A DNA stretch of 33,035 bases from Bacillota bacterium (lineage in GTDB: Bacteria > Bacillota > Bacilli > Alicyclobacillales > SLC66): the NCBI GenBank assembly GCA_021805735.1, contig JAJZEE010000038.1, positions 1 to 33,035 of the forward strand. Reading direction: 5' to 3'. The notes beneath the pieces were generated by a model. That model saw only the letters and a program-made list of their open reading frames with translations. It searched no databases and had not been told where the DNA came from. Both the position numbers and the translations under genes were made by a program. Shown piece after piece: positions 8,051-31,857 of the stretch; the stretch's first letter is position 1, and every line of letters begins with the position of its first letter.

Positions 8051-8151
8051 TCACTACAGGCCCACGGTCGCCCTCGGCTCACGACCGCTGTCAGTCCGAG
8101 AGCGCCGCCAGCCCGCGGGCGCCATCAGTTCAACACCACAGCAGCCCGCGA

Positions 8152-9690: not shown

Positions 9691-9725
9691 ACACACTCCT
9701 CCTCGTACATCCAGTCGCCTCTGCG

Positions 9726-11731: not shown

Positions 11732-11760
11732 TTCCGGATTAGCGCCCCCTGCCCCGCGTC

Positions 11761-12774: not shown

Positions 12775-12847
12775 GTGTCGATCGACTCCTTGTATGGACA
12801 TATGCCAGTTCAGGGCGCACCCTCCAACTGGGTGGTTCTGTGACACT

Positions 12848-12881
12848 GCTACAACGTGGTTCCATTACAAAGCTACAACGT
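12848..12881 (-). repeat. Pair of 10-bp direct repeats in the cggR-gap intergenic leader
   Basis: GCTACAACGT occurs at 12848-12857 and again at 12872-12881, 24 bp start to start, in the untranslated stretch between cggR and gap. In Bacillus subtilis the cggR-gapA message is cleaved in this general region; whether these repeats mark a processing or regulatory site is inference. Confidence 0.6.
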
Positions 12882-12924
12882 CGCCGTAATCAGCGCAACT
12901 GGCCGTTGCGACCATCAACAGAAT

Positions 12925-13950: not shown

Positions 13951-14077
13951 ATCCTTCGCCTCCACTGCGGTACTGTAGACTTCACTGCCGCCTTGCGGCG
14001 CTAGAAACCGGGAAAAATATACGCGTGCGGCGACATTTCCGGATGCGCGCCCATGTTTCAGCGGCGCGAAGCCAACA

Positions 14078-14115
14078 GGGACTATTTGCGTCCCGCTATG
14101 TCAAAATGCGTCCCG
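14078..14115 (-). promoter_or_regulatory. CggR operator
   Basis: On the minus strand the sequence has the layout CGGGAC-N6-TGAC-N4-CGGGAC-N6-AGTCC. This is the tandem-repeat architecture and spacing known for the Bacillus subtilis CggR operator (CGGGAC-N6-TGTC-N4-CGGGAC-N6-TGTCC), with only small differences. It begins about 12 bp after the -10 box, so bound CggR would block transcription initiation or early elongation. Confidence 0.9.
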
Positions 14116-14126
14116 CTACACTATGT

Positions 14127-14155
14127 ACTATACCTTGACTTGCGGTTTTACTCAA
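14127..14155 (-). promoter_or_regulatory. Sigma-A promoter of the glycolytic operon
   Basis: The -35 TTGAGT (14150-14155) and -10 TATAGT (14127-14132) are separated by exactly 17 bp, directly upstream of the CggR operator and about 180 bp before cggR. Confidence 0.85.
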
Positions 14156-14158
14156 GAC

Positions 14159-14211
14159 GGCGTTTTCCCACGTGAACTCACAGCGCGTATGGACGCGCTT
14201 GGGAAAACGCC
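14159..14211 (-). terminator. 12-bp inverted repeat downstream of rpoN, possible terminator
   Basis: GGCGTTTTCCCA (14159-14170) pairs with TGGGAAAACGCC (14200-14211). A second nested stem AGCGCG/CGCGCT (14182-14199) lies in the loop. It follows the rpoN stop by 14 bp and ends just before the operon promoter. No strong T-tract follows, so a terminator role is only probable. Confidence 0.5.
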
Positions 14212-14225
14212 ATCGTCAGGGCGCC

Positions 14226-15566: not shown

Positions 15567-15660
15567 CGCTACACCCTCCGAAGGTTCCTGTCCTGTCGGC
15601 ATCGCATGAGCAAGAATCGGTGATACAAGCAAGATTCATGCCGCCGATTACCATATCACC

Positions 15661-18135: not shown

Positions 18136-18230
18136 GAAGAAGAGCACTCACTGATACGCTGAAGCACTTCATCATCATGGTACGGTGCCGTGGATGCCGC
18201 GAAGACCGATTGACTGCGAGGGGTGCGCCT

Positions 18231-18443
18231 ATGAAAAGCTTCATGGCATTTGTCCAGTGGGATGCGGATAGCCAATTGTATATTGGACTTGTGCCGGGAA
18301 TCCCGGGCGCTCATTCCCAAGGCGTTTCATTAGATGAACTTCAAGCAAATCTCCAGGAAGTAGTAGCGTTATGCCTGGAAGAAGTGCCCCAAGATGAACT
18401 TCCTCAATTCGTTGGAATTCAGCAAATCAACGTAAATATATGA
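18231..18443 (+). CDS. hicB: HicB-family antitoxin, short form
   Basis: The 70-aa protein has the HicB partial RNase-H-like fold: an opening strand FMAFVQWDADSQLYIGLVPGIPGAHSQG, then the conserved SLDELQANLQEVVALCLEE helix. It lacks the C-terminal DNA-binding domain of longer HicB proteins, which is common in the hicB-first arrangement. It neutralises the HicA mRNA interferase by binding it. ATG 18231 has GAGGGG 7 nt upstream; a longer frame from 18177 has no such site. The stop overlaps the hicA start (ATGA). A near-identical second copy lies at 32029-32241. Confidence 0.93.
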   Translation: MKSFMAFVQWDADSQLYIGLVPGIPGAHSQGVSLDELQANLQEVVALCLEEVPQDELPQFVGIQQINVNI

Positions 18444-18667
18444 CTCGACTTCCGGCCCTTTCCGCAAAACAACTGAATCACGTATTGCTTACGCTGGGAT
18501 TTCGCGTAACCAGACAACGTGGCAGCCACGTGTTCTACAGGCACAGCGATGGAAGAACGACTACAGTTCCACACCATGCAGGAAGAGATATAGCCCGGCC
18601 ATTGCTCCATGAGATACTAAGAGAAATCGATCTTTCTCTAGAGGAACTCATTCGCTTGCTAGAATAA
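18440..18667 (+). CDS. hicA: HicA-family mRNA interferase toxin
   Basis: The 75-aa protein has the double-stranded-RNA-binding-like HicA fold. LSAKQLNHVLLTLGFRVTRQRGSHVFYRH contains the catalytic His30 in the GSHV motif, followed by TTTVPHHAGRDIARPLLHEILREIDLSLEELIRLL. Family members cleave mRNA and tmRNA and cause growth arrest or persistence. The start overlaps the hicB stop by four bases, so the pair is coupled. All key residues are present, so this copy should be active; the second copy at 32238 is broken. Confidence 0.93.
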   Translation: MTRLPALSAKQLNHVLLTLGFRVTRQRGSHVFYRHSDGRTTTVPHHAGRDIARPLLHEILREIDLSLEELIRLLE

Positions 18668-18740: not shown

Positions 18741-19658
18741 ATGACTGCGAACGGTTTTACATCGCCTTTTTTCACGCTCGTGCGTCTGGGGTCAAATGTA
18801 TTTGCGGCGATAGCGAACCGCGGAACCGGTGCTCTGGGCAATGCGGGGATTATTGATCTTGGTGGCCAAACCATCGTGTTCGATACATTTCTCTCACCAG
18901 CGGCGGCAAGGGACTTGAGGCGGGCAGCGCAGACTGTTACTGGCGGCGATGTAACGCATGTCGTAAACAGTCATTGGCACGGTGATCACATCAACGGCAA
19001 TACAGTTTTTTCTGACGCGATGATCGTTAGCACTTCAGGAACTCGTGAACGGATGTTAGAGGTTAGTCGCTCGTCAGATGTGGAACAGACTATTCAGGGA
19101 CTTTTGTCATACCTCAAGAAGCGGCAACAGGAGCACGATGAATTGCCCCCAGGTAAGCATCGCGATGCTGTGGAAGCAGACATCGGAGACAGGCGGTCGT
19201 TGCTTGACAGTATTCGCGAAGTCCGTAACATCCTTCCAAACGTCACGTTTACCGATCAACTTGGTCTTTATGGTTCTTCTCGCAGTGCGGTTCTTCATAC
19301 ATTTGGCGGCGCGCATACTCACAGTGATGCATTTTTATGGGTGCCTGAAGAGCAAGTGTTGTTCTGTGGGGATATTTTTGTAAATCGTACACATCCGTGG
19401 GTTGGGCACGGACATATCGATAACTGGATAAGAACCATCGATCGGATAAGCGAATTCGATGTCGTTCAGCTGGTGCCGGGACACGGCGACGTAGGGAATA
19501 AAGATGATCTTTATGCGCATCGCGAATATCTTGTGCATCTATTATCGCTCATAGACGAGGTTGACAAGCAGGATATAACGATTCCCGAACAATATGCAGA
19601 TTGGAGTGCAGCGCATATGTTCTACCGCAATATCGATGCGTTGCGATCTCGAAAATAA
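18741..19658 (+). CDS. Metallo-beta-lactamase-fold hydrolase
   Basis: The 305-aa protein has the metal-binding motif NSHWHGDHINGN (His78, His80, Asp82, His83), a later His in FGGAHTHSDAF, the bridging Asp in VLFCGDIFVN and the C-terminal His in VPGHGD. These fit the MBL superfamily, close to cyclase/hydrolase members that cleave lactones, thioesters or similar substrates. A helical insertion at about residues 110-155 (LLSYLKKRQQEHDEL...) may form a substrate lid. ATG 18741 has GAGGAGG about 7 nt upstream. It is the last plus-strand gene before the catabolic operon, which converges on it. The substrate is unknown. Confidence 0.85.
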   Translation: MTANGFTSPFFTLVRLGSNVFAAIANRGTGALGNAGIIDLGGQTIVFDTFLSPAAARDLRRAAQTVTGGDVTHVVNSHWHGDHINGNTVFSDAMIVSTSGTRERMLEVSRSSDVEQTIQGLLSYLKKRQQEHDELPPGKHRDAVEADIGDRRSLLDSIREVRNILPNVTFTDQLGLYGSSRSAVLHTFGGAHTHSDAFLWVPEEQVLFCGDIFVNRTHPWVGHGHIDNWIRTIDRISEFDVVQLVPGHGDVGNKDDLYAHREYLVHLLSLIDEVDKQDITIPEQYADWSAAHMFYRNIDALRSRK

Positions 19659-19815: not shown

Positions 19816-20994
19816 TCAGATAACTCCTTTAACTCTTAGCTCCTCAACAGCATCCGGTGCAAATCCAAGCTGCTGGAGAATTGCCAATGTGTGCTCACCT
19901 AGCTCCGGAATGCTTCCCATCTTTACACCCATACCTTCCAACTGAACTGGGGGACACAGGGCTGGCAACGGTCCGACTGGCGATTCCACACTGTGCCACC
20001 GATTTCTGGCTGTCAGTTGTGGGTGCTCGGCGAACTCCAGGACTGAATTCATATGCGCCGTCGCAACGTTGGCAGCTTCAAGGCGTTCCATGACAACTTC
20101 AAGACTGAGTTGCTCAAAGACGGCTTCAATAATCTCCTTTAGCTCAAATCTGTTTTTCACTCTGTGTGCATTGGACTGAAACCGGACCTCGTTGGCCAAG
20201 AACGGCATTTTGAGAACAATGGAACAAAAATTCTCCCATTCTCTATCGTTTTGAACCGCGACAAAGATCTGCTTATTGCCAGCAACGGAGAACGGACCAT
20301 ACGGATAGATAGTGGCGTGACTTAGTCCTGTCCTAGCCGGCTCCCGTTTTGTAAACATTGAGTAATACAGCGGATGACTCATCCATTCGCCTAATGCCTC
20401 AAGCATGGATACATCCACGCGTGTACCGGCACCTGTTCTTGCGCGGGTCAACAGTGCTGTAAGAATACCTGTATAGGCGTACATGCCAGCCGCTATGTCA
20501 GCAATGGAGATTCCGACCTTGGAAGGCGCATCCGCGGTTCCAGTCATGGACGTCAAGCCTGTTTCGCACTGGATGAGCAGGTCATATGCTTTTCGGTCCC
20601 TGTATGGTCCATCAGGTCCGTATCCTGAAATATTGGCCATGATCAACCTGGGATATTTATCCTTCAGAGTTCCCCATCCATATCCAAGTCTCTCTACAGC
20701 ACCTGGAGCTAGATTTTGCGCGAGGACATCGGCCTGACCAAGAAGCAAGTCCAAAATGTGTCTGGACTCAGTTCTTTTTAAATCCAGGGTTACGGACTCT
20801 TTCGATCGATTCAACCAGGTAAAGTAACTGGACATTCCGTTCACAGCGTTGTCATAGTGCCTGGCGAAGTCTCCAGTTCCAGGACGTTCTATCTTGATAA
20901 CTCTCGCGCCGAGGTCCGCCAGTTGCCGCGTAGCAAAGGGAGCAGCGACAGCCTGTTCCAGCGATACGACCGTAATCCCTTCCAATGGCAACAT
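19816..20994 (-). CDS. Class III (CaiB/BaiF) CoA-transferase
   Basis: The 392-aa protein moves CoA between carboxylic acids by a covalent aspartyl intermediate. The N-terminus LEGITVVSLEQAVAAPFATRQLADLGARVIKIERPGTGD is diagnostic, followed by SVTLDLKR, NLAPGAVERLGYGW, ANISGYGPDGPYRDRKAYDLLIQCETGL (the catalytic Asp is in AYD) and ADIAAGMYAYTGILTALL. ATG 20994 has a strong GAGGAGG. It is the last gene of the minus-strand catabolic operon. No acyl-CoA ligase is present in the operon, so this enzyme probably loads CoA onto the pathway acid, using an end product such as acetoacetyl-, acetyl- or succinyl-CoA as donor (inference). Confidence 0.93.
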   Translation of the reverse strand: MLPLEGITVVSLEQAVAAPFATRQLADLGARVIKIERPGTGDFARHYDNAVNGMSSYFTWLNRSKESVTLDLKRTESRHILDLLLGQADVLAQNLAPGAVERLGYGWGTLKDKYPRLIMANISGYGPDGPYRDRKAYDLLIQCETGLTSMTGTADAPSKVGISIADIAAGMYAYTGILTALLTRARTGAGTRVDVSMLEALGEWMSHPLYYSMFTKREPARTGLSHATIYPYGPFSVAGNKQIFVAVQNDREWENFCSIVLKMPFLANEVRFQSNAHRVKNRFELKEIIEAVFEQLSLEVVMERLEAANVATAHMNSVLEFAEHPQLTARNRWHSVESPVGPLPALCPPVQLEGMGVKMGSIPELGEHTLAILQQLGFAPDAVEELRVKGVI

Positions 20995-21030
20995 GAATGC
21001 CCCTCCTCTTCACCGAAGGAAATCTTCTAT

Positions 21031-21339
21031 TCAACGCAGACCAAGAGTGGCTACTACGTCCATCGTGATCACAACCGTTGACGAATTCTCACACTTGTCT
21101 TGCAGGAAGGGTACCTCACTACTCGTGAGGTTCATGAGTGCTTCACAATATGTCGCATGGTTGATAATCCCCCGACGTTCGAGAACAAGTAAACTGTCAC
21201 GGATCCGTTCAAACAGTGGCTCGAGGTTGAGAAATCGTCTATTTTGTATTACGACCTTCTGACCTCTTGTCAGTAGTTCAATGACGGCAGAAATCAGTTT
21301 CTCCTGCTCGTACGTAAAATGCGCAATTGATTGTTCCAT
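21031..21339 (-). CDS. Unrecognised 102-aa protein of the catabolic operon
   Basis: I do not recognise a family. From ATG 21339, chosen because AAGGAG lies 6 nt upstream, the protein is 102 aa; an earlier ATG (21372) overlaps the HMG-CoA-lyase stop as ATGA. The first part is helical (HFTYEQEKLISAVIELLTRGQKVVIQNRRF). A second amphipathic stretch follows (LEPLFERIRDSLLVLERRGIINHATYCEALMNL), then a strand-like C-terminus (STVVITMDVVATLGLR). There is no signal peptide, membrane segment or metal motif. Its place between the lyase and the CoA-transferase, with tight spacing, suggests an accessory or regulatory subunit for the pathway (inference). Confidence 0.75.
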   Translation of the reverse strand: MEQSIAHFTYEQEKLISAVIELLTRGQKVVIQNRRFLNLEPLFERIRDSLLVLERRGIINHATYCEALMNLTSSEVPFLQDKCENSSTVVITMDVVATLGLR

Positions 21340-21368
21340 ATCTGTCTCCTTATTGATTGCACTGTAAC

Positions 21369-22265
21369 TCATGTTGCTTGTAACGCATGGCTTGGCAAAT
21401 GCCTTTCGTTGTATTGGTCACGGATGAACACGGCGCTATCCATCAGACGGTCATAATTGATACCCGTATGGATATCCATGCCGTGCAGCATGTAGAGCAG
21501 ATCCTCTGTCGCGATATTTCCGGCGGCGCCTGGGGCATATGGGCAACCACCCAGACCTCCGACAGCGGAATCGAACTTGAATACGCCATATTCCAGGCCA
21601 GTAAGTACGTTTGCTAAGCCCGTACCTCTCGTGTCATGAAAGTGTAAGGCCATACTATCCTGTCCCACAACGTCCAATGCCCTGTCGAGGAATTGTGATA
21701 CTTGAAGGGGATTCGCCACGCCGATTGTATCCGCGAACGAAATTTCATAGATTCCCGCCTCGAGTAACGTTTCAGCAATACTCAATGAAATATCTACGGG
21801 GACACGCCCTTCATAAGGGCAGCCAAACGTTGTAGAAATATACGCTCGAACGGGGAGCCCCGCTGCCAGAGCATGATGAGATACTTCCCTACAATCGTGC
21901 AATGACTCGACGATTGACCGATTGAGATTCTTGCGGTTGTGTGACTCGCTTGCGGAGAGAAACAGAACAACTTCGTCCACATCTGCTGCGAGCGCGCGCT
22001 CAAGACCTGATGAATTGGGAACCAGCGCAGCATAGGTAATCTCGTTTACCCGACGGATGTTGCGAAATACTTCGGAGGCATCAGCCAGCGGTGGTATCCA
22101 CCTGGGGTTCACGAACGAAGATACCTCAATGTAACTCAAGCCTGCCCCACTCAACAGGTCGATCCAGGCTACCTTATCCTCTGTCGGAAGTATCTTTGAT
22201 TCATTTTGCAACCCGTCACGTGGTCCCACTTCACGGATGATGACCGCTTCCGGAAACATAGACAT
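21369..22265 (-). CDS. HMG-CoA lyase family enzyme
   Basis: The 298-aa protein belongs to the DRE-TIM metallolyases. The N-terminal REVGPRDGLQNE carries the catalytic Arg and metal-binding Asp; SFVNPRWIPPLADASEV, TTFGCPYEGRVP, FADTIGVANP and LHFHDTRGTGLAN (metal His pair) follow, and GGLGGCPYAPGAAGNIATEDLLYML carries the signature Cys. The classical reaction splits 3-hydroxy-3-methylglutaryl-CoA to acetyl-CoA and acetoacetate; relatives cleave other 3-hydroxy-3-methylacyl-CoAs. ATG 22265 follows a GGGGGG run. It overlaps no gene and sits about 20 bp after the acyl-CoA dehydrogenase. The operon contains an AUH-like hydratase that would supply such a substrate. Confidence 0.93.
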   Translation of the reverse strand: MSMFPEAVIIREVGPRDGLQNESKILPTEDKVAWIDLLSGAGLSYIEVSSFVNPRWIPPLADASEVFRNIRRVNEITYAALVPNSSGLERALAADVDEVVLFLSASESHNRKNLNRSIVESLHDCREVSHHALAAGLPVRAYISTTFGCPYEGRVPVDISLSIAETLLEAGIYEISFADTIGVANPLQVSQFLDRALDVVGQDSMALHFHDTRGTGLANVLTGLEYGVFKFDSAVGGLGGCPYAPGAAGNIATEDLLYMLHGMDIHTGINYDRLMDSAVFIRDQYNERHLPSHALQAT

Positions 22266-22284
22266 ACGCAACCCCCCACAAGTA

Positions 22285-23442
22285 TCAATATGATCTTGGC
22301 AACCCCAGGACGTGTTCACCAACGTACGAAAGGATCAAATTCGTTGAAACTGGCGCAACCTGATAGAGGCGGGTTTCCCTGAACTTCCGCTCCACATCGT
22401 ACTCTTCGGCAAACCCAAAACCTCCGTGCGTCTGCAGCGCAACGTTGGCTGCCTCCCAGGACGCGTCTGCAGCAAGGAGTTTTGCCATATTTGCCTCAGC
22501 TCCACATGCCTCACCTTGGTCAAACAGTTGCGTGGCGCGATAGCGCATGAGGTCTGCCGCCTCCACGTTTACGTGTGCCCGCGCAATGGGGAATTGCACT
22601 CCCTGGTTCTTTCCTATGGGATTTCCAAAAACAATGCGCTGACTGGCGTATTTGGTCGCTCGATCCACAAACCAACGACCGTCTCCAATGCATTCCGCAG
22701 CGATGAGAATTCGTTCTGCGTTCATCCCGTCCAGAATGTAGTGAAATCCTTTTCCTTCTTCTCCAATGAGGTTATCAACGGGAACTTCCAGATTGTCGAA
22801 GTAGATTTCCGTCGTAGCATGGTTCATCATCGTTCGAATTGGTCGAATGGTCATCCCGTGTCCCAGAGATTTCTTGATATCCACCAACAAGACAGACAGT
22901 CCGTGGGTGCGCTTTTGCACGTCCTTCAAGGGGGTAGTTCGAACCAGTAGCAACATCAAATCTGAGAATTGAGAGCGGGAAATGAAGACCTTTTGGCCAT
23001 TGACTACATATCGATCTCCCTTTCGAACTGCGGTCGTCTTAAGTTGAGTCGTATCTGTTCCCGTATCAGGTTCAGTCACGCCGAATGCTTGAAGACGTAT
23101 GGACCCGTCCGCTATTTTCGGAAGATACTTTTCCTTCTGTTCCTTTGAACCATGCCGCAGCAATGTTCCCATCGTGTACATCTGGGCATGACACGCGCCG
23201 GAATTACCTCCGGAACGATTGATCTCTTCGAGGATGATTGAACCTTCCGTGATTCCAAGGCCAGCTCCGCCATACTCCTCCGGAATCAGAGCGGATAAAT
23301 ACCCTGACTGCGTCAAAGTCTTCACAAATTCCTCTGGATATTGATTGTCAGCGTCGACTCTACGCCAGTATTCGTCCGGAAATTTACTGCAAAGTTTCTG
23401 GACAGCCCTTCGTAGATTCGCATGGAGCTCGAGTTTGCTCAT
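22285..23442 (-). CDS. Acyl-CoA dehydrogenase with an isovaleryl-type catalytic Glu position
   Basis: The 385-aa FAD enzyme introduces a 2,3-double bond in acyl-CoAs. Typical segments are ALIPEEYGGAGLG, AFGVTEPDTGTDTTQLKTTAVR and NGQKVFISRS, and LQTHGGFGFAEEYDVER near the end. The usual C-terminal catalytic Glu of short- and medium-chain enzymes (YEGTSEI) is replaced by YQVAPVSTN. A Glu at residue 243 in DGMNAERILIA aligns with the catalytic Glu of isovaleryl-CoA and long-chain dehydrogenases (GLDLERLVLA). This favours a branched or bulky substrate. The start ATG 23442 lies about 60 bp after the hydratase stop. Electrons would go to an ETF not encoded here. Confidence 0.93.
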   Translation of the reverse strand: MSKLELHANLRRAVQKLCSKFPDEYWRRVDADNQYPEEFVKTLTQSGYLSALIPEEYGGAGLGITEGSIILEEINRSGGNSGACHAQMYTMGTLLRHGSKEQKEKYLPKIADGSIRLQAFGVTEPDTGTDTTQLKTTAVRKGDRYVVNGQKVFISRSQFSDLMLLLVRTTPLKDVQKRTHGLSVLLVDIKKSLGHGMTIRPIRTMMNHATTEIYFDNLEVPVDNLIGEEGKGFHYILDGMNAERILIAAECIGDGRWFVDRATKYASQRIVFGNPIGKNQGVQFPIARAHVNVEAADLMRYRATQLFDQGEACGAEANMAKLLAADASWEAANVALQTHGGFGFAEEYDVERKFRETRLYQVAPVSTNLILSYVGEHVLGLPRSY

Positions 23443-23504
23443 CGAAGTGTCCCCCGCATACTGCGTGATGATGAATGCAGCCTGGAAACAGGCAGCAACT
23501 ACTT

Positions 23505-24290
23505 TCAGAGACCCAGGAACTTAGGTTCGCGCTTTTCGTTGAAGGCCCTAATTCCCTCATATCGGTCTTCACTGGCAACACACTGGTTATAGAACTGAAT
23601 TTCAGCCAATCTGGCTTGTTCGTCAGTCATGGTGAAGAGGTCATCTATCCCACGCTTGCTCAACTTCACCGCAAGCGGGGCATTACGGCTGATTGTGTTC
23701 GCAAGGGCCAGAAATTCACTTTCCAGGTCATCCGGCGCGACAAGTCGGTTGCATAAGCCCATTGCATTCACTTCGTCCGCGCTGAATTTCCGGCCAGAAA
23801 GAATAATCTCCTTTGCCCTATGGACTCCTATCCTTTTGGCCAGAAGACGGGTACCCCCGCCACCCGGCATGATGCCTCGGGTGGTTTCAGGCAGTCCAAA
23901 AACAGCCCTTGTGGATACAATCCAGAGATCGCAGTTGAGAGCAAGTTCCATTCCGCCAGCTAATGCATACCCGTCCACGACAGCCACTGTCGGCATCGGC
24001 AGATCCGCCAGGCCATGAAACATCTTCTGGAACACTCGATGTTGATCACGCCACTGCGCATCGTCCAGGCTGTTGCGTTCCTTTAGGTCGGCGCCGGTAC
24101 AGAATGCCTTTTCGCTTGAAGAACGAACGCCGACAACCCGAATATCCTTCGTTTCACTCAACTCTCGGCATACTTCAATGAATTCCTCCGCCATGGCCGT
24201 GTTGAAGGCGTTCATTACATGCTCACGATGAAGCACTATTTGCGCCACGTGTGGGTGGTCGGGGAGGCGCTCCCAGTAGACGTTTGCCAT
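23505..24290 (-). CDS. Enoyl-CoA hydratase, AUH (methylglutaconyl-CoA hydratase)-like
   Basis: The 261-aa crotonase-fold protein should hydrate a 2-enoyl-CoA. Oxyanion-hole residues are in AFCTGADLKER and GYALAGGMELALNCDL. The two catalytic Glu are in GGMELAL and VFGLPETTRGIMPGGGGTRLL. GADLKER and PGGGGTRLL are closer to AUH, which acts on 3-methylglutaconyl-CoA, than to standard EchA. The start ATG 24290 has AGGAG 7 nt upstream; a GTG six bases earlier is possible. It follows the decayed dehydrogenase remnant and precedes the acyl-CoA dehydrogenase. A 3-methyl-branched substrate is likely by motif and context, but this is inference. Confidence 0.92.
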   Translation of the reverse strand: MANVYWERLPDHPHVAQIVLHREHVMNAFNTAMAEEFIEVCRELSETKDIRVVGVRSSSEKAFCTGADLKERNSLDDAQWRDQHRVFQKMFHGLADLPMPTVAVVDGYALAGGMELALNCDLWIVSTRAVFGLPETTRGIMPGGGGTRLLAKRIGVHRAKEIILSGRKFSADEVNAMGLCNRLVAPDDLESEFLALANTISRNAPLAVKLSKRGIDDLFTMTDEQARLAEIQFYNQCVASEDRYEGIRAFNEKREPKFLGL

Positions 24291-24296
24291 GGTCAC

Positions 24297-24475
24297 TCTC
24301 CTGTCAAGAACGCGTCATACGCTACTCGTTACCGCCAAACCGTTATTACCGAGAGCCACTTCCTTCACGATTTCCGGAGTCGACAAGCTAACGAGTGTCC
24401 AGCCTCCTGAAGTCGTTTGGCCATCGGACGCCCCATGTTGCCCAAGCCTACGAAGCCAACTTTCACAGCGACCAC
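24297..24475 (-). pseudogene. Internally deleted remnant of a 3-hydroxyisobutyrate dehydrogenase-like gene
   Basis: From GTG 24475 the minus strand reads a clear NAD-binding start, KVGFVGLGNMGRPMAKRLQE followed by AGHSL, as in the beta-hydroxyacid dehydrogenase family, then stops at 24365 after 36 codons. In another frame, directly overlapping, it continues as VSLSTPEIVKEVA, like the conserved STxSPE segment that lies near residue 95 in full proteins, and ends at about 24301. The intervening 60-70 codons, the catalytic domain and the C-terminus are missing. The remnant lies between the decarboxylase-family gene and the hydratase and keeps the operon direction, so the gene was once part of this pathway. 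Confidence 0.75.
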
Positions 24476-24487
24476 ATCCGTCTTCGT

Positions 24488-24859
24488 TTACTGAAATTCA
24501 TCAAACACCTTTTGTGCAATCTTGAAACTTTCTACGGCGGCCGGTACTCCGCAGTAGATTGCAGTTTGTAGAAACACCTCAACTATCTCCTCTTTCGTGC
24601 ATCCATTTCTAAGCGCTCCCCGAACGTGCAACATGAGTTCATCTGGACGGTTCAGAGCTGTCAGCATGGAGAGATTCACCAAACTGCGAATTTCCTTGGA
24701 CAATCCTGGTCTACTCCAGACGGTACCCCAGCAGTATTCTGTGACCAGTTGTTGAAATGGGATGGTGACCTCAGTCGCATTGGCCAACGACTTGTTCACG
24801 TACTCATCGCCGAGAACTTCGCGCCTTATTTGCATTCCTATATCATATTTATTGCTCAT
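24488..24859 (-). CDS. Carboxymuconolactone decarboxylase (CMD) family protein
   Basis: The 123-aa protein has the all-helical CMD fold. It resembles 4-carboxymuconolactone decarboxylase PcaC: GMQIRREVLGDEYVNKSL at the N-terminus, TEYCWGTVWSRPGLSKEIRSLVNLSMLTALNRPDELMLHVRGALRNGCTKEEIVEVFLQTAIYCGVPAAVESFKIA in the core, containing the HVRGALRNG and AIYCGVPAA motifs of PcaC. The family also includes AhpD-like peroxidases, but no CxxC is present. I chose ATG 24859 (GGAGG 9 nt upstream); ATGs at 24868 and 24865 are too near the site. Its role here may be decarboxylation of a lactone or beta-keto-like compound; the aromatic beta-ketoadipate pathway is not otherwise present in the window. Confidence 0.88.
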   Translation of the reverse strand: MSNKYDIGMQIRREVLGDEYVNKSLANATEVTIPFQQLVTEYCWGTVWSRPGLSKEIRSLVNLSMLTALNRPDELMLHVRGALRNGCTKEEIVEVFLQTAIYCGVPAAVESFKIAQKVFDEFQ

Positions 24860-24887
24860 GTTCATCATCCTCCACTCTATTGACTCT

Positions 24888-26108
24888 TCATAGATTTCTT
24901 ACGTCGTCCAACACTGCGCTAAGGTACTTCATAAAGAGCTCTGGATGTTCGGCCATTGGAAAATGTCCGATTCCTTTCATCGCAATGAACTGTCCACCCA
25001 TACGTTCCGCCGCTTGTCTACTCATCTCTGGCGTACACGAGTAGTCGTATTCCCCCGTCAAAATCCAGAGAGGACATTTTGCGGTTCCAATGGATTCGGA
25101 TACGGACGGCCAGTCCTGGCTGTAAAAATAGGTGTCTCCTTGATAAACGCCCGGCGCACCCTGCGAGTACTCCCAGAGAGTTAGCCTCCGTTCGTATTCC
25201 GGGCTGTCTGGCGCCATTAGGCCTGCTACCCAGGATTGAAGAAATCTCCCGCCGTTTACCTTGGGATGATTGGTCCATGGTACGTATCTTCCTCGTGTTC
25301 CAAATCCGCCTTCAATGGAGATCGCCGCTTTGAACAAGTCTCCGTATTCGGCGGCAAGATACAGCACAATCGCGCCACCCATTGAACTGCCAGAAATGAT
25401 GGGTCGCTTGTCCGCTAGACCTGTTGCCTTGATAAATCCAATAATCCAGTCGGTGTACATTTGTGTCGTCAGTTGATATGGGTTTTTCCACCATCCTTCG
25501 GGTGGTTCAGACCGACCATGAAATGGCATATCAACGGCGTACATGTGCCAATGTTTTTGCAGTGCTTCATTACCCAGCAAATGTTTGTACTGCCTGGAAT
25601 CCGAGCCGGCAGTATGGAGGAAAATAATCGGGTCCCCTGTTCCCGCCTCCTCGTAATACAGAACACATTCACCTTCAGGCATCTGTGTCCTTACATAGCG
25701 CCCCTGAATGGTTTCGGAAAGAAACTTCCGCGGACCAGTATGAGTCTGGTCATTCTCGCTGCGCGCCAGAGTACAAATCCGTTCGACAGCGGCCACGGAC
25801 TGCGCCCACTCCAGTCGATCTCCTTCAATGATAACTCCCGGCACATGAGCAATCATGGCTTGGAGAGTATTGTGAAAAGGAGGAGGGCTCGGGGAAAGAA
25901 ATTTTCCCCACGAGTCTGCCGGTACATCCAGGGTGAACGACCAGACGTCTCCAATCGTTTGTGAGTCTGTGACCTCTATAGAGTCGTCACTTAGTTTCCA
26001 TAGGTACCGTGACTTGTCCACCTTGATAAGAAAGCTCAAGTTCAAGTTTTTCTTCAGGTAGGCAAGTTCAGTGTCTTGTAAGCACTTGGTGAGCCAATCG
26101 TTCAACAT
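24888..26108 (-). CDS. Alpha/beta hydrolase with an N-terminal SCP2-like domain
   Basis: The 406-aa protein combines two parts. Residues 1-120 look like an SCP2 sterol-carrier-type lipid-binding fold: a strand-rich region ending with FTLDVPADSWGKFL, then a helix pair and VIIEGDRLEWAQSVAAVERI, resembling the SCP2 C-terminal pattern. From about 140 an alpha/beta hydrolase follows, with IIFLHTAGSDSRQYKHLL (oxyanion loop), the nucleophile elbow GSSMGGAI, an Asp in LTGEYDYSCTPEM and the catalytic His in KGIGHFPMAEHPELF. I chose ATG 26108 because GGAGGGG lies about 8 nt upstream. It probably hydrolyses an ester or lactone of a hydrophobic substrate (inference). It is 30 bp from the CMD gene. Confidence 0.85.
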   Translation of the reverse strand: MLNDWLTKCLQDTELAYLKKNLNLSFLIKVDKSRYLWKLSDDSIEVTDSQTIGDVWSFTLDVPADSWGKFLSPSPPPFHNTLQAMIAHVPGVIIEGDRLEWAQSVAAVERICTLARSENDQTHTGPRKFLSETIQGRYVRTQMPEGECVLYYEEAGTGDPIIFLHTAGSDSRQYKHLLGNEALQKHWHMYAVDMPFHGRSEPPEGWWKNPYQLTTQMYTDWIIGFIKATGLADKRPIISGSSMGGAIVLYLAAEYGDLFKAAISIEGGFGTRGRYVPWTNHPKVNGGRFLQSWVAGLMAPDSPEYERRLTLWEYSQGAPGVYQGDTYFYSQDWPSVSESIGTAKCPLWILTGEYDYSCTPEMSRQAAERMGGQFIAMKGIGHFPMAEHPELFMKYLSAVLDDVRNL

Positions 26109-26152
26109 CTTGATCCCCTCCGAAATGGACATTACCGTTGCATTGAAGCGTG

Positions 26153-27508
26153 CTATTCAGCGCCTAATTCCTCGAGAGAGCGGCCCTTTGTCTCCGGTCC
26201 AACTCGCCAAACCAGAACTACCGCAAGCCAAAACCCAATCGCCATGGTCAGGAAAACGCCGTAGTAGAAGTGCGTTGAAATGAAGATCCCAAAGACAATT
26301 GGACTGATGGCGGCTGCCAGACGTCCTCCTGCTGTGGCCCAAGCCGTAGCGCTGGATCGGACCTCAGTGGGGAACAACTCGGGCGCGTAAATGACCGTTC
26401 CGGCCACACCTTGTTCATAGATGAAACTGAGCAAAGCAGCGCCAGCAACGAGCACCCCAGGTGTATGCAGTGTTCCGAAAACCAGTGCCATGATACCGCC
26501 GAGTCCGAACCCAACGTAAAACAGTTGTTTTCGACCGAATTTTTCGACCGTATAAAACGCTGTTACCCGACCAAGAATAGCTGCGATTGCGACGTAGAGC
26601 GTGTAGGTGAACGTGTGAACCAGACTCAGATTAAACACATTTGACAGAATTGCAGGCAACCACAGCAAGAATCCATAATAACCGTAGTAGCTGAAAAAGT
26701 AGTATCCGACAGCTAGCAGCATGCGCGCTCTGTACTGGTTGCTCAGTAGTTCCGACAGAGGTACTCCCCGCGCCACCGGTCCGCTGTCGCTCAAGTACAC
26801 CTCTGCCCCCAGTTTCTGTAGACTCTCATTTGCTTCCCTTATCTTCCCTTTGCGCTGCAGCCACCTCGGTGATTCTGGCAGTACAGTGAAGATAGGTATC
26901 AACAAGACAATCGGTAAGCCGCCAATCAGAAACAGATACCGCCAGTTATTGATGTCGGCCGATATCAAGTTGAGGGCCAAAATGGCCGCGGCCAGTAGAC
27001 CAAAAGGCCAGAGAATGGTGATGAACCCGAGGAACCTGCCACGATATTTACTGGGAGCATATTCGGCTACCATCGATTCCACAATCGGCAGCATTCCCCC
27101 AATGCCCAAACCGGTAAGCACGCGCAATACCCCAAGTTCAACTTGCGTTTGCGCAAACATGGTTAAAACCGAAAATATGGAATACACGATGACCGAAGAT
27201 GAGAATCCCACCCGCCGGCCGAATGCGTCGGAGATACTCCCCCAAAGCACCGCGCCTACCATCATGCCCCAAATGGACGCAGAATTGATAAGCCCGGAAA
27301 CTTTCAAACTGATATGCATGATCTTGATGACCGCGGGAGTTGCGTAGGACATTAAGTATGTGTCAAACGAATCAAACACAAATCCCAGAGCAACAATGGT
27401 TAGTACATAGTAGTGAATCTTATTCGGCTTCAAAATGCCCACGATATTTCCAACCGTTTTCTCGTTCCATGCCTCTTTCATCGCTTCCATGACTTCACTA
27501 ACTCTCAT
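26153..27508 (-). CDS. MFS transporter, organic/aromatic acid:H+ symporter type
   Basis: The 451-aa protein has about 12 hydrophobic segments and starts FDSFDTYLMSYATPAVIKIM, typical of the AAHS/SV2 branch of MFS (FDxFD/DxxD in helix 1). The first half carries LWGSISDAFGRRVGFSSSVIVYSIFS and LTGLGIGGMLPIVESMVAEYAPSKYRGRFLGF; the second half has YTVEKFGRKQLFY and APELFPTEVRSSATAWATAGGRLAAAISP. Relatives import aromatic acids, nicotinate or small organic acids with H+. It lies between the aldehyde dehydrogenase and the alpha/beta hydrolase in the operon and probably takes up the pathway substrate. The ribosome-binding site before ATG 27508 is weak. Confidence 0.88.
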   Translation of the reverse strand: MRVSEVMEAMKEAWNEKTVGNIVGILKPNKIHYYVLTIVALGFVFDSFDTYLMSYATPAVIKIMHISLKVSGLINSASIWGMMVGAVLWGSISDAFGRRVGFSSSVIVYSIFSVLTMFAQTQVELGVLRVLTGLGIGGMLPIVESMVAEYAPSKYRGRFLGFITILWPFGLLAAAILALNLISADINNWRYLFLIGGLPIVLLIPIFTVLPESPRWLQRKGKIREANESLQKLGAEVYLSDSGPVARGVPLSELLSNQYRARMLLAVGYYFFSYYGYYGFLLWLPAILSNVFNLSLVHTFTYTLYVAIAAILGRVTAFYTVEKFGRKQLFYVGFGLGGIMALVFGTLHTPGVLVAGAALLSFIYEQGVAGTVIYAPELFPTEVRSSATAWATAGGRLAAAISPIVFGIFISTHFYYGVFLTMAIGFWLAVVLVWRVGPETKGRSLEELGAE

Positions 27509-27628
27509 ATGGCTGGATTTTAAAATTTGGGTATTTCTGAAGCAAACCGACGTTCGGGTTATGAGAGCATCACTCCCCTTGAAGCATTTCCATTCAAAGT
27601 GGTTCTGAGAGACTACCGATGAGCATCG

Positions 27629-29092
27629 TCAACTGAATCGAATCAGAACATTTTTCAATTGCGTGAAGTGCAGCAAGGCTTCCAAACCCTTTTCTCGCCC
27701 AAATCCACTCTTGCCATAACCGCCAAAGGGCAATTCAACACCACCTCCAACCCCATATGTATTGATGTAAATCTGACCCGCCCTTACCTCTTCAGCCATT
27801 ACGTGAGCGTTCCGAATGTTGTTTGTGAAGACACCGGCAACAAGTCCATACTCTGTTTCATTGGCTATCTCAATGGCTTCATCGATATCGTAAAACGTCA
27901 GGACCGAAAGCACGGGTCCGAAAATTTCCTCTGTTGCGACTCTGCTGCCTCTGCTCACTTGGTCAAATACTGTTGGAAGGACAAAGAATCCGTTTGTCAG
28001 TTTCTCGTCGAGGACGCGTCCTCCGCCGGTTCGAACCACGGCCCCCTCCTCGCGGGCGACGGCGACGTAATCCAGGACCCTATCCATTTGAGGACCGGAA
28101 ATAATCGGGCCAAGATCTGAATCTTGCAAACCAGGGCCAATTTGCAGACGTTCCATACGCTCGATCACCATATCCGTGAATTGTTCGTGAACCTTGGATT
28201 CTACAATCAATCGAGAGCCGGCCGAGCACGTCTGACCAGCATTCTGGATGATTGACTTGACAACGATGTCCGCGGCGTCTTCCAGGTTTGCGTCAGCAAA
28301 GACGATATTCGGGGACTTCCCACCCAGTTCAAGGGTCACCGGTACTACATTTCTTGCCGCCGCAGTCATAACGGAGATACCCGTTTCGACGGATCCGGTA
28401 AAGGACAAATGATTTACCTTAGGATGCGATGAAAGCGCTTTACCTGCCTCGTCTCCAAATCCAGGAACCACATTGATGACTCCATCAGGCAGCCCTGCCT
28501 TCTGGCAAATATCAGCAAGTCGTAACGCCGTCAGCGGGGTCTCTTCGGCCGGTTTGACCACGACAGTGTTGCCGACCACGATTGCCGGCGCGATGGCGCG
28601 AGATGCAATCTGTAGCGGGTAGTTCCAGGGGACAATGATCCCGCACACGCCAAACGGTTCACGTCTCGTGAAATCGAAGTATCCGGGATTAACAGGGATC
28701 GTCTGACCCAATAACTTGTCTGCCACGCCGGCATAATACTCAAAATATCGGGCAGCGACTTCTACGTCCGCCTTCGCCTGTTTGAACGGTTTCCCATTAT
28801 CACGACTCTCCAATATAGCAAGGTCCTGAGATTGATCGCGAATGATGGAGGCAATACGCAAAAAGATGCGCCCACGCTCTGCTGGAGGCATGTTTCGCCA
28901 GCCAGATGAATCAAACGCCCTGCGCGCTGCAGACACCGCGCCGTCGATATCTTCCGCATTCCCGCGACCTACTTGCGCAAGCACTTCCTGAGTAGCGGGA
29001 TCTCGCGTCTCAAACCATTCTCCCGAACTTGGCTCTACCCGTTTACCGTCGATCCACAAGTGATACAGTTCCAAAATTATGCCCCCAATCAT
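27629..29092 (-). CDS. NAD(P)+-dependent aldehyde dehydrogenase
   Basis: The protein has the complete ALDH fold: WNYPLQIASRAIAPAIVVGNTVVVKPAEETPLTAL for cofactor binding, FTGSVETG, the catalytic Glu in VTLELGGKSPNIVF, catalytic Cys in NAGQTCSAGSRL, and EEIFGPVLSVLTF with LPFGGYGKSGFGREKGLEAL near the end. It oxidises an aldehyde to the acid. Two starts are possible: ATG 29092 (487 aa, no ribosome-binding site) or TTG 29074 (481 aa, GGGGG 7-8 nt upstream). It follows the gntR gene by about 20 bp, so it is the first enzyme gene of the operon. The substrate specificity cannot be read; it is likely to feed the acid to the CoA-transferase. Confidence 0.93.
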   Translation of the reverse strand: MIGGIILELYHLWIDGKRVEPSSGEWFETRDPATQEVLAQVGRGNAEDIDGAVSAARRAFDSSGWRNMPPAERGRIFLRIASIIRDQSQDLAILESRDNGKPFKQAKADVEVAARYFEYYAGVADKLLGQTIPVNPGYFDFTRREPFGVCGIIVPWNYPLQIASRAIAPAIVVGNTVVVKPAEETPLTALRLADICQKAGLPDGVINVVPGFGDEAGKALSSHPKVNHLSFTGSVETGISVMTAAARNVVPVTLELGGKSPNIVFADANLEDAADIVVKSIIQNAGQTCSAGSRLIVESKVHEQFTDMVIERMERLQIGPGLQDSDLGPIISGPQMDRVLDYVAVAREEGAVVRTGGGRVLDEKLTNGFFVLPTVFDQVSRGSRVATEEIFGPVLSVLTFYDIDEAIEIANETEYGLVAGVFTNNIRNAHVMAEEVRAGQIYINTYGVGGGVELPFGGYGKSGFGREKGLEALLHFTQLKNVLIRFS

Positions 29093-29114
29093 TTTGTTGT
29101 TTGCGTGAATTGAG

Positions 29115-29753
29115 TCATTCGGGGAATAGTACGTCCAGAGATTTCAACGAACGAATCTCTTGCTGACGAATTGCATAACGGGCATCGCGAAGATTGTTTG
29201 ACCGCAGTGCTTCGACTTGTTTCCGGTGCTCGAGGCACGACGACTGCAGGTTGTTGCCCTGTCCCATGACCAAGAGCCGGAACGGTCTAACGGACATTCT
29301 CAGAGACTTATAAATACCCACCAACGTCCTGTTTCCGGCTATGTTGAAAATCTCCAAATGATACTTTTCATTTAGCTCATAGTAGGAATGAATATCGTTG
29401 GCTGTTGCAGCAACTTGTTGTTCCTCCAGAATCTCCTCAAGGGTGGTAAAATCCTGTTCCGTTCCCCTCGATGCTGCTTTTTCCATCGCCATTTCTTCCA
29501 AGCGATAGATAACGTCATACAGCTCGTGAATTTCCTCCTTTGTAAAGTTTCGTACTGCAGCACCGATATTCGGGATTTTCTCCACGAGACCATCTCGTTC
29601 CAGCATGAGTAGCGCGTCACGAACCATAGCCCTGCTGCATTGAAACTTCTCAATCAGGACGGCTTCAACAAGCCTTTCACCAGGGTGCAGAATTCCTCTA
29701 CCTATAAGCGAAGCGATTTCTTCTGCAATGTTAGCTGCCTTTTTACCCTTCAT
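29115..29753 (-). CDS. GntR-family transcriptional regulator, FCD (FadR-like) subfamily
   Basis: The 212-aa protein has an N-terminal winged helix (IAEEIASLIGRGILHPGERLVEAVLIEKFQCSRAMVRDALLMLERDGLVEKIPNIGAAV) and a C-terminal all-helical FCD domain from about residue 75 with LEEMAMEKAA, YYELNEKYHLEIFNIAGN and LEHRKQVEALRSNNLRDA, whose His and Asp/Asn residues usually bind a metal and a carboxylate ligand. It is the first gene of the catabolic operon and overlaps an operator/promoter cluster at 29805-29850, so it should repress its own operon until an organic acid is present (inference). Its start ATG follows GAGGGG very closely, so a weak initiation is likely. Confidence 0.93.
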   Translation of the reverse strand: MKGKKAANIAEEIASLIGRGILHPGERLVEAVLIEKFQCSRAMVRDALLMLERDGLVEKIPNIGAAVRNFTKEEIHELYDVIYRLEEMAMEKAASRGTEQDFTTLEEILEEQQVAATANDIHSYYELNEKYHLEIFNIAGNRTLVGIYKSLRMSVRPFRLLVMGQGNNLQSSCLEHRKQVEALRSNNLRDARYAIRQQEIRSLKSLDVLFPE

Positions 29754-29808
29754 AGCCCCTCAACACCTCGTGGAATTCTGGTACTGACAAGCACAGCACC
29801 GATCATCA

Positions 29809-29836
29809 ATAATATTATCGATAATATTGTTGACAA
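29809..29836 (-). promoter_or_regulatory. Promoter of the gntR catabolic operon
   Basis: On the minus strand, -35 TTGTCA (29831-29836) and -10 TATTAT (29809-29814) are 16 bp apart, about 55 bp upstream of the gntR start. The spacer is filled by operator-like palindromes. Confidence 0.6.
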
Positions 29837-29848
29837 TCTTATCGATAA
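29811..29848. promoter_or_regulatory. Operator cluster: two TTATCGATAA palindromes flanking ATTGTTGACAAT
   Basis: An 18-bp perfect palindrome (29811-29828) contains TTATCGATAA (29815-29824). The same 10-mer recurs at 29839-29848, 24 bp away. Between them ATTGT-TG-ACAAT (29826-29837) fits the GT-N-AC half-site pattern of GntR/FCD operators. All overlap the promoter. Confidence 0.7.
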
Positions 29849-29853
29849 TCAGA

Positions 29854-30192
29854 ATGTAAAACTATTTTGTTCACTTGTCAATGGGTTGGATCATGATTCA
29901 TGTGCTGCAATCCGTGTCAGCCTACGGCGAGCACACTGATGACAACCTGCTCATTCAAGAGGTCTCCATTGTATCGATTGGGCAATCTCATAAAACCCAG
30001 CCGCCGCAAGGCATGCTGGGTTCTTGGTTCTTGTCATCGTTTTTGCAACAGGTTGGACATGGTTCAGAACGCTGCTGGACCCGAACGATACCCGCACAAT
30101 CCGTTCGAAGAGAGTTCTTCGGCTTACCGATCCAGACTGTAGAGATACAAAACACATGTCAGGAAGCTCTCAAAGCGATCCTAACAACAGCG
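29854..30192. other. Gene-free stretch
   Basis: Between the operator cluster and the end of the substrate-binding protein gene I see no frame with a ribosome-binding site or recognisable protein, no repeat and no RNA gene. Plus-strand frames here run into the antisense of the substrate-binding protein and are probably chance. Confidence 0.5.
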
Positions 30193-31857
30193 TCAGTGCT
30201 TGGCGATCCACATGTATTGCAGCGGATCCCTGAGGTTCGCGTTGATGTAGAATCCTTTCACCCACGGTTGCACAGCGGCCGCATACACCGGATACACCAG
30301 CGGAATCCACGCCGCCTGTGACATGATGATGTTTTGCGCCTGCTTGTACACATTGTCGCGTGGAACGCCAGCCGGCATCAGCGCGGCCCTGTTCAGCAGC
30401 GCGTCCACCTGCGGATTGCTGTAGTTCGTCGAGTTGTTCACCGGCGCTTCATTGCTGTTGAACAGTATATCGAGGAAGTCAGACGGATCCGGGAAGTCTT
30501 CCAGCCACGCGAGAGTGAATATGTTTTGTTTTCCACTCTCATTGTTGGTCAGGAAAATACCCCATGATGTCTGGTTCACGTTTGCGTGAACGCCCACCTG
30601 CGCCAACATCTGCTGGGCCGCTTCCGCGAACTTCAGGTCGGTCGGACTGCTGTTGTCGGTGTAGATGGTCGTCGAGAAACCCTTTGGATACCCGGCTTTG
30701 GCAAGCAGTTTCTTCGCCAGCGTGGGATCGTAGGTGTACTGTGCATTCTTCGGCAGCACCTTCTCATACCCGGAGGGCATGCTGGGCGGGATGATCTGGT
30801 TCGCGGGAACCGCCAGACCGGACATGATGCGCACGAAAGTCTGCTTGTTGATCGCGTATTCCAGCGCACGGCGCACGGCGACATTGGCAGTTGGACCATA
30901 TTTGGTGTTCAGACCCAAGTAGTTGATCGCCACTTCCGTGGATTTGACGATGTCCTTGCTATATTGCGGGTTGGTCGAGAGCGGCAGATAATCCTGCGAC
31001 GGAATGCCACCCTGGTTCCACGATAGCAGGTCTGTCTTGCCCTGCTCGAAATGAAACAGCACAGCATTCTGTGAATTGTTGATGTTGAAGACGATTTTGC
31101 TGAGATAAGGAATGCCCTTTTTGAAGTAGTGCGGGTTGCGCACCAGCACGTAGTTCCGTCCAGCCGTGTACGACTGCAGCATGAAGGGGCCGCTGCCCAT
31201 CGGATGCGTATCGACGTAGGCTTCCGGATGCGAGTTCACGTACGCAGGATCAACAGCCGAGAAGAAGTGCATCGCCAACACGTTCAGGAACGTTGCGCTT
31301 GGGTTATTCAAGGTGATCTGCAGCGTGTGGGCATTCAGCGCCTTGATTCCAGTGACCGTCTTCGCTTTGCCCGCGACAAATGCGGCGGATCCCTGAATCA
31401 GCGGGGAGATGAAGCCTTGACCAGGAGAACGTATGCTGTTGCTCAGTACGCGCTCAAACTCGGTGACAAAGCTCTGCGCCGTGACGGGGGATCCGTTCCA
31501 GAAGTTCGCGTTGGTGATGTGGAACGTGTACACCTTGCCGCCATCCGAGATAGTCCAGGACGACGCCAGATCGGGCACCAGAGTATTGGTCGCACCCTTG
31601 TAGGTCACGAGTTGATCATAGAACTGCAATACAGCTTCAGCCGAGGTCGTGTCGAACGCTTTTGCAGGATCAAGGTTCGGGAACTGACTGGAGAGATCCA
31701 TGGTCAGAGTGCCGCCGTATACCGGCTGTGAACCCTCGGTCGCCTGGCTGGCAGTTTTCGGCGTGCTAACGGCCTGTGTGCTGCATCCGGCAAGCGCTGT
31801 GCTCAATATGCCCACAGAAGCGACAACCCCAAACAGCCGCAACTTACTTGACTTCAT
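30193..31857 (-). CDS. Oligopeptide/dipeptide ABC transporter substrate-binding lipoprotein (OppA/DppA family)
   Basis: The 554-aa protein has a lipoprotein signal peptide with lipobox LAGC (Cys25). The mature part is a family 5 solute-binding protein: YGGTLTMDLSSQFPNLDPAKAFDTTSAEAV, LASSWTISDGGKVYTFHI, FWNGSPVTAQSFVTEFERVL and the C-terminal half with YTYDPTLAKKLLAKAGYPKGF and EDFPDPSDFLDILFNSNEAPVNNSTNYSNPQVDALL. It would sit outside the membrane and deliver peptides or similar solutes to an ABC permease. ATG 31857 follows AGAGGGGG. It has its own promoter and no permease or ATPase genes next to it on either side, so it must work with components encoded elsewhere. The ligand is unknown. Confidence 0.95.
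   Translation of the reverse strand: MKSSKLRLFGVVASVGILSTALAGCSTQAVSTPKTASQATEGSQPVYGGTLTMDLSSQFPNLDPAKAFDTTSAEAVLQFYDQLVTYKGATNTLVPDLASSWTISDGGKVYTFHITNANFWNGSPVTAQSFVTEFERVLSNSIRSPGQGFISPLIQGSAAFVAGKAKTVTGIKALNAHTLQITLNNPSATFLNVLAMHFFSAVDPAYVNSHPEAYVDTHPMGSGPFMLQSYTAGRNYVLVRNPHYFKKGIPYLSKIVFNINNSQNAVLFHFEQGKTDLLSWNQGGIPSQDYLPLSTNPQYSKDIVKSTEVAINYLGLNTKYGPTANVAVRRALEYAINKQTFVRIMSGLAVPANQIIPPSMPSGYEKVLPKNAQYTYDPTLAKKLLAKAGYPKGFSTTIYTDNSSPTDLKFAEAAQQMLAQVGVHANVNQTSWGIFLTNNESGKQNIFTLAWLEDFPDPSDFLDILFNSNEAPVNNSTNYSNPQVDALLNRAALMPAGVPRDNVYKQAQNIIMSQAAWIPLVYPVYAAAVQPWVKGFYINANLRDPLQYMWIAKH

Follow-up and report, generated by a model that had tools for sequence, protein, structure and literature searches.

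A run of ten open reading frames (ORFs) and one gene remnant, all on the minus strand of the window (contig C157, 33,035 nucleotides, from a Bacillota genome of 3.76 Mb), is proposed here to encode the degradation of a branched C5 diacid, methylsuccinate and/or itaconate, to acetyl-CoA and pyruvate; we put the probability of this reading at about 0.6. A pathway of this kind is known from Pseudomonas, and what is new is the use of a crotonase and an enzyme of the HMG-CoA lyase family (HMGL; HMG-CoA, 3-hydroxy-3-methylglutaryl-CoA) in place of the MaoC-type hydratase Ich and the CitE-type lyase Ccl. The run extends from position 29753 down to 19816. Assigned via Pfam and NCBIfam profiles, its genes encode, in order, a GntR/FCD regulator, an aldehyde dehydrogenase (ALDH), an MFS transporter, an alpha/beta hydrolase, a protein of the carboxymuconolactone decarboxylase (CMD) family, a crotonase-type enoyl-CoA hydratase (ECH), an acyl-CoA dehydrogenase, the HMGL-like enzyme, a 113-residue ORF product and a class III CoA-transferase. 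All ten genes occur in identical order in a congener (genome G370, loci L032/L049), with protein identities of 51–90%, and the operon is therefore a real unit. Genes for a carboxylase, an acyl-CoA ligase, a thiolase and acetoacetate activation are all absent from it.

A preliminary description of this DNA had already reported the ten genes and the remnant in one direction, their families, and the lack of carboxylase and ligase, all of which we find as well; the gene order that it proposed to look for in other genomes is seen in the congener. It had also read a route from the genes, in which a beta-methyl-branched acyl chain is activated by CoA transfer, 2,3-dehydrogenated, hydrated and cleaved between C2 and C3 to acetyl-CoA. 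This outline, which has no carboxylase step, is supported; the second product then expected, a simple ketone, would give way to pyruvate (or acetoacetate).

In the route proposed here, whose substrates, stereochemistry and upstream steps we infer, the C5 diacid would be imported as such or formed inside the cell from a lactone or semialdehyde precursor, with ALDH P0009 oxidizing the semialdehyde to the diacid. CoA-transferase P0001 would then form the C4-CoA ester with succinyl-CoA as donor, dehydrogenase P0004 would convert methylsuccinyl-C4-CoA to mesaconyl-C4-CoA, crotonase P0005 would add water to give citramalyl-CoA, and lyase P0003 would split the latter into acetyl-CoA and pyruvate. Methylsuccinyl-C4-CoA, or 3-carboxybutyryl-CoA, differs from isovaleryl-CoA in having a carboxylate where the latter has one of its methyl groups. 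As this carboxylate is there from the start, the lack of a carboxylase calls for no further explanation.

Dehydrogenase and CoA-transferase subfamilies

Over 381 residues, the window dehydrogenase shares 69% identity with the PA0879-type dehydrogenase of a Pseudomonas aeruginosa itaconate cluster (L132), and the CoA-transferase shares 54% over its whole length with the PA0882-type transferase of the same cluster. L132 is a P. aeruginosa plasmid record (NZ_CP131792.1) with the PA0878–PA0883 gene order and a TRAP transporter, and its proteins were equated with PA0879 and PA0882 by cluster order. As deposited, this record is a megaplasmid that carries the whole itaconate cluster together with the transporter. 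Species genomes scanned with the dehydrogenase gave no fewer than 580 relatives. The best 80 are 65–90% identical, and 48 of these 80 have a class III CoA-transferase gene at most 5 kb away on the same strand. Neighbors of the dehydrogenase relatives include FAS1/MaoC-type hydratases, RipB/Ich-like MaoC proteins, RipC/Ccl-like CitE lyases and MmgE/PrpD proteins, and in loci L053 and L059 dehydrogenases 75–79% identical to that of the window are clustered with transferase, MaoC, CitE and MmgE/PrpD genes. The catalytic Glu of isovaleryl type, noticed earlier in this dehydrogenase, is E243; it is invariant in 111 members of the family, and Q361 occupies the position of the MCAD Glu.

By its identity values the window dehydrogenase belongs to the PA0879 subfamily (Mcd) and does not lie near isovaleryl-CoA dehydrogenase, and, judged in the same way, both the Ict and the Mcd members of a P. 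aeruginosa-type cluster are present. PA0879 and its Cupriavidus necator homologue are (RS)-methylsuccinyl-C4-CoA dehydrogenases (PMC12290011), and in Pseudomonas putida carrying the itaconate cluster PA0879 is required for growth on methylsuccinate (PMC9875883). The transferase of C. necator works with succinyl-CoA and has a preference for (R)-methylsuccinate; on acetate, propionate and butyrate its activity stays below 0.1 U/mg (PMC12290011). Because dehydrogenase and transferase both fall in these itaconate/methylsuccinate families, whose characterized members take C5 dicarboxylates as substrates, the acid handled by the operon is probably a branched dicarboxylate, already bearing the carboxylate that a carboxylase would add.

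Joint replacement of hydratase and lyase

The operon contains no MaoC-family itaconyl-CoA hydratase (Ich), and a crotonase stands in its place. No CitE-type lyase (PF03328) exceeded the Pfam cut-off in the window genome and two congeners, where weak sub-threshold matches lie in 588-residue frames, so that the HMGL, which scores 413.8 bits against PRK05692 (cut-off 246), is the sole lyase candidate found. MmgE/PrpD proteins (PF03972) gave no match in the same three genomes. Among 110 dehydrogenase loci gathered across the class and from plasmids, a crotonase gene is present in all 13 that bear an HMGL gene. The 25 CitE-bearing loci have MaoC/Ich in 18 cases and a crotonase in 4, 3 of these 4 also with HMGL. 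Crotonase genes thus accompany 10/10 HMGL-only and 1/22 CitE-only loci (Fisher p = 1.7e-7, a value that is too small because the loci are related to each other). Crotonase and HMGL are swapped jointly for MaoC/Ich and CitE/Ccl, repeatedly, among these loci. To fit the dehydrogenase tree, the HMGL label must change at least three times on starred branches, and all independent contrasts on that tree, two to four in number, agree with the pairing of HMGL and crotonase.

The window ECH lies inside a clade of dehydrogenase-linked ECHs (15 rows, SH-aLRT 99) and outside the separate clade formed by the leucine-pathway ECHs (support 97). The dehydrogenase-linked lyases form several separate lineages: the window, its congener and L209 make up a starred clade, with the HMG-CoA lyases of leucine operons as its sister group, and the others are L050/L212/L215/L216, L224–L227 (clade C) and L176/L228/L232 (clade D). 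HMGL-type clusters with an MmgE/PrpD gene, which would fit a methylsuccinate isomerase and which the window's genus lacks, were seen at L209, L212, L215, L224–L226 and L228. In L166–L175, HMGL genes are paired with a class III CoA-transferase and an MFS gene, mostly without a dehydrogenase.

By alignment, the window lyase keeps R41, D42, E72, N138, R165, Y167, D204, H233, H235, C266 and N275 (human numbering), among them the catalytic residues of the family, R41, D42, E72, D204, H233, H235, C266 and N275. Position 203 is Gly in 28 of 28 leucine lyases and Ala in the window clade, clade C and clade D; it is also Ala in most of the L166–L175 lyases. R165 and Y167 are lost in clades C and D and kept in the window enzyme. 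Taken together, these residues favor a dicarboxylyl-CoA substrate without deciding between HMG-CoA and citramalyl-CoA, and a literature search returned no open structural paper on residue rules that separate the two.

By the priority rules, (S)-HMG-CoA and (R)-citramalyl-CoA are spatially equivalent. Given this equivalence, the crotonase/HMGL pair would take the C5 route through (R)-citramalyl-CoA, and the matched swap of hydratase and lyase predicts that this isomer replaces (S)-citramalyl-CoA. Of the P. aeruginosa enzymes, PA0883, the CitE-type lyase of the itaconate cluster, accepts only (R)-HMG-CoA, and PA2011 (LiuE) only the (S) isomer (PMC6689899). Rv2498c of Mycobacterium tuberculosis, likewise of the CitE family, cleaves both (S)-citramalyl-CoA and (R)-HMG-CoA in one active site (PMC6689899) and is in this sense the mirror-image case of what is proposed for the window lyase.

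The pathway with the co-replaced pair is apparently found in several families of Bacilli. A broader claim, that many Bacilli follow an (R)-citramalyl-CoA route for itaconate or methylsuccinate, with crotonase and HMGL co-recruited more than once and a lactone/semialdehyde module in the window's genus, is tentative, and we give it slightly less than an even chance. In the literature collection searched, nothing was found on carboxylase-free lyase routes or on HMGL-type citramalyl-CoA lyases in Bacilli.

Alternative substrates and origins

Several points weigh against the C5-diacid reading. The loci are not independent, and two (starred) to four contrasts on the dehydrogenase tree fall short of significance. 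The lyase keeps the ordinary residues of HMG-CoA lyases, R165 and Y167 included, and has the leucine enzymes as its sister group, so that HMG-CoA may be its substrate. Locus L050, which has the same hydratase–dehydrogenase–lyase set, adjoins thiolase and class I CoA-transferase genes, an arrangement that suits acetoacetate. Finally, the hydrolase, the CMD protein and the 113-residue ORF have no evidence-based role in the route.

In an alternative reading, with a substrate one carbon longer, 3-methylglutarate (or 3-methylglutaconate) is activated and passes via 3-methylglutaconyl-CoA and HMG-CoA to acetyl-CoA and acetoacetate; already a diacid, it would need no carboxylase either. The kept lyase residues and sister position, the AUH-like family of the hydratase and the order ECH–dehydrogenase–HMGL followed by thiolase and class I CoA-transferase in L050 speak for this reading. 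However, dehydrogenase and transferase fall in C5-dicarboxylate subfamilies, the operon is without a thiolase or a gene for acetoacetate activation, and the C. necator transferase has a kcat/Km of 0.06 for glutarate against 65 for (R)-methylsuccinate, with 3-methylglutarate not reported (PMC12290011). We consider 3-methylglutarate unlikely, if the most serious competitor to methylsuccinate and itaconate.

Far less probable is a 3-methyl-branched monocarboxylic acid of the terpenoid kind, as first suggested for this operon, cleaved without carboxylation to acetyl-CoA and a simple ketone. Such a route is chemically possible and the dehydrogenase has the isovaleryl-type Glu. Carboxylase-free cleavage has a precedent in (1-hydroxycyclohexan-1-yl)acetyl-CoA lyase (EC 4.1.3.35) of cyclohexylacetate degradation. 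Yet the identities given above (54% for the transferase, 69% for the dehydrogenase) tie both enzymes to dicarboxylate subfamilies, the lyase has R, N and Y in common with the HMG-CoA lyases that cleave dicarboxylates, and the C. necator Ict rejects monocarboxylates (PMC12290011). Terpenoid and other monocarboxylic acids were dropped as the lead on the grounds of these subfamilies. The geranyl/citronellol (atu) pathway depends on geranyl-CoA carboxylase, and the window operon is without carboxylase genes.

A second copy of the tail of the leucine pathway, served by a carboxylase encoded elsewhere, is very improbable. The genome has carboxyltransferase genes on contigs C82, C80 and C137 and biotin carboxylase genes on C12, C120 and C96. 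C120 carries genes for a biotin carboxylase and an HMG-CoA lyase together with the first part of a hydratase gene, which is cut off by the contig end, and C80 ends in a methylcrotonyl-CoA-carboxylase-like beta subunit. These pieces belong to an ordinary leucine operon, complete with lyase and hydratase, since MCCA, HMGL, ECH and MCCB are contiguous in about 20 relatives, a congener among them. The search for methylcrotonyl-CoA carboxylase proposed in the preliminary description thus did find such genes, on C120/C80 in the leucine operon (the genome's carboxyltransferases were not typed against geranyl-CoA carboxylase). These genes could in principle serve the window operon, but they come with a lyase and a hydratase of their own. 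The window operon shares the enzyme families of hydratase and lyase with the leucine (liu/yng) operon; it differs from it in having no carboxylase, a hydratase of another clade, a lyase in a separate sister clade, a dehydrogenase of the PA0879 subfamily, and a CoA-transferase.

The operator points the same way. Upstream of the GntR gene, a −35 element TTGACA (29881–29876) and a −10 element TACATT (29858–29853) are followed by the repeats TTATCGATAA (29848–29839), TTGTCAACAA (29836–29827) and TTATCGATAA (29824–29815). At up to three mismatches over 22 bases, a search that degenerate sites could escape, this array is unique in the genome, and the carboxylase operon under the same GntR site that had been named as a refutation was not found. 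Together with the ECH clade and the separate leucine genes, the unique operator led us to reject the leucine duplicate. The congener has a similarly placed palindrome array of different sequence, and its regulator is 82% identical to P0010. The GntR/FCD protein is probably an autorepressor, and presumably it is this protein that binds the repeats.

Upstream genes, remnant and surroundings

The features of the operon are collected in Table 1. As to ALDH P0009, a 59% identical enzyme sits in locus L213 alongside a full itaconate-type cluster. The MFS transporter scores 229 bits against TIGR00895, under the cut-off of 418.6, and the CMD protein reaches 159.9 bits against the PcaC equivalog TIGR02425, just over the cut-off of 155.7. 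The lipid-binding domain once ascribed to the hydrolase was not recovered by Pfam. The additional N-terminal part of the hydrolase, about 135 residues long, is a separate small gene in L037, L038, L040 and L041. The structure model of the hydrolase is poor (mean pLDDT 62); its top fold matches are lactonase and epoxide hydrolase, with the N-terminal domain unmatched. Speculatively, and modelled on PcaC and PcaD, a (carboxy)lactone might undergo decarboxylation and ring opening, and the ALDH would oxidize the resulting semialdehyde to the diacid.

Table 1. Features of the operon in the window, from the promoter downstream
Feature	Position	Strand	Basis
Promoter and operator region	29800..29885	-	sequence motifs
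GntR/FCD-family regulator P0010	29115..29753	-	Pfam GntR and FCD; first gene
NAD(P)-dependent aldehyde dehydrogenase P0009	27629..29092	-	Pfam Aldedh
MFS transporter P0008, aromatic-acid:H+ symporter-like	26153..27508	-	TIGR00895, below cut-off
Alpha/beta hydrolase P0007 with extra N-terminal domain, lactonase/PcaD-like	24888..26132	-	family profiles, fold matches
PcaC-type carboxymuconolactone decarboxylase homologue P0006	24488..24868	-	TIGR02425
3-Hydroxyisobutyrate-dehydrogenase-like remnant	24297..24488	-	pieces matching intact homologues
Crotonase-type enoyl-CoA hydratase P0005, putative mesaconyl-C4-CoA hydratase	23505..24296	-	ECH_1; ECH tree
Acyl-CoA dehydrogenase P0004, methylsuccinyl-C4-CoA dehydrogenase (Mcd, PA0879) subfamily	22285..23442	-	identity
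HMG-CoA-lyase-family enzyme P0003, putative (R)-citramalyl-CoA lyase	21369..22322	-	PRK05692; HMGL tree
113-residue ORF P0002	21031..21372	-	intact in congener
Class III CoA-transferase P0001, itaconate/methylsuccinate CoA-transferase (Ict, PA0882) subfamily	19816..20994	-	identity

The remnant, most likely the one mentioned in the preliminary description, consists of two pieces in two frames that match residues ~6–31 and 65–95 of intact homologues resembling 3-hydroxyisobutyrate dehydrogenase (HIBADH). Such intact homologues adjoin the same hydrolase, CMD and GntR genes in L033, L037, L038 and L040; homologues of these three genes stand in other Bacilli with genes for an ALDH, for transporters and for a protein of the metallo-beta-lactamase fold, besides an intact HIBADH-like gene, and the diacid genes are absent there. 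The operon could on this account be a partly decayed composite, in which an old lactone/aldehyde module (regulator, hydrolase, CMD protein, transporter) lost its dehydrogenase gene and gained the diacid module, its upstream part perhaps being idle. We think this hardly probable, since hydrolase, CMD protein, MFS transporter and ALDH are intact and 76–84% identical in the congener, and since the hydrolase keeps company with the diacid dehydrogenase: across 399 genomes of the class the hydrolase occurs in 13, the dehydrogenase in 26 and both in 8, and outside the window's genus the dehydrogenase is found in 6 of 11 hydrolase genomes versus 24 of 397 overall (p = 1e-5, uncorrected for genome size and kinship). 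In L225, matches to CMD, GntR and HIBADH lie within the dehydrogenase cluster itself.

The 113-residue ORF has no Pfam or NCBIfam family match. Its copy in the congener is intact, with 51% identity over 84 residues and saturated synonymous sites, and gives a weak match to 3HCDH_N (E = 0.077). Foldseek weakly matched the modest model of the ORF product (mean pLDDT 74) to 3-hydroxyacyl-CoA dehydrogenase at a probability of 0.99 and E = 0.15; the protein is perhaps a shortened NAD domain of such an enzyme.

Around the operon, a gene for a peptide/solute-binding lipoprotein-like protein, judged by eye, lies directly upstream (30193–31857, minus strand), and on the opposite strand a metallo-beta-lactamase-fold protein gene adjoins the CoA-transferase gene (18741–19658, plus strand). 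Another protein of similar fold, distinct from that of the window, accompanies the hydrolase and CMD genes in L037. A small toxin–antitoxin pair (18177–18667, plus strand), consisting of a HicB-like ORF recognized by eye and without Pfam match, followed by a HicA toxin gene (PF07927), stands between a tRNA-Arg gene and the operon. Genes for phosphoglycerate kinase, phosphoglycerate mutase and enolase lie downstream of rpoN (sigma-54; 14226–15632) in the interval 6716–15632 on the minus strand.

With the cluster of P. aeruginosa and C. necator (ich-mcd-mmgE-ict-ccl, PA0878–PA0883) the window operon has in common the subfamilies of transferase and dehydrogenase, the lack of a carboxylase and, on the proposed route, the order of chemistry and C4-CoA esters. 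It differs in its crotonase for MaoC/Ich, its HMGL for CitE/Ccl and the lack of an MmgE/PrpD isomerase, and it has in addition the ALDH, the hydrolase, the PcaC-like protein and the GntR regulator. The R-citramalyl-CoA lyase of Chloroflexus aurantiacus, the subject of a 2007 paper by Friedmann, reportedly belongs to the HMGL family. That enzyme serves CO2 fixation, whereas the window lyase is proposed to be catabolic.

Macrophages and fungi produce itaconate as an antimicrobial, and a MaoC-type hydratase together with a CitE-type lyase currently defines its degradation by bacteria. Should Bacilli rely on a mirror-image pair instead, searches with the known genes overlook them. The substrate range of the HMG-CoA lyase family, many members of which are annotated as leucine enzymes, would then need revision. 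The co-replacement offers a clear test of stereochemical matching between hydratase and lyase.

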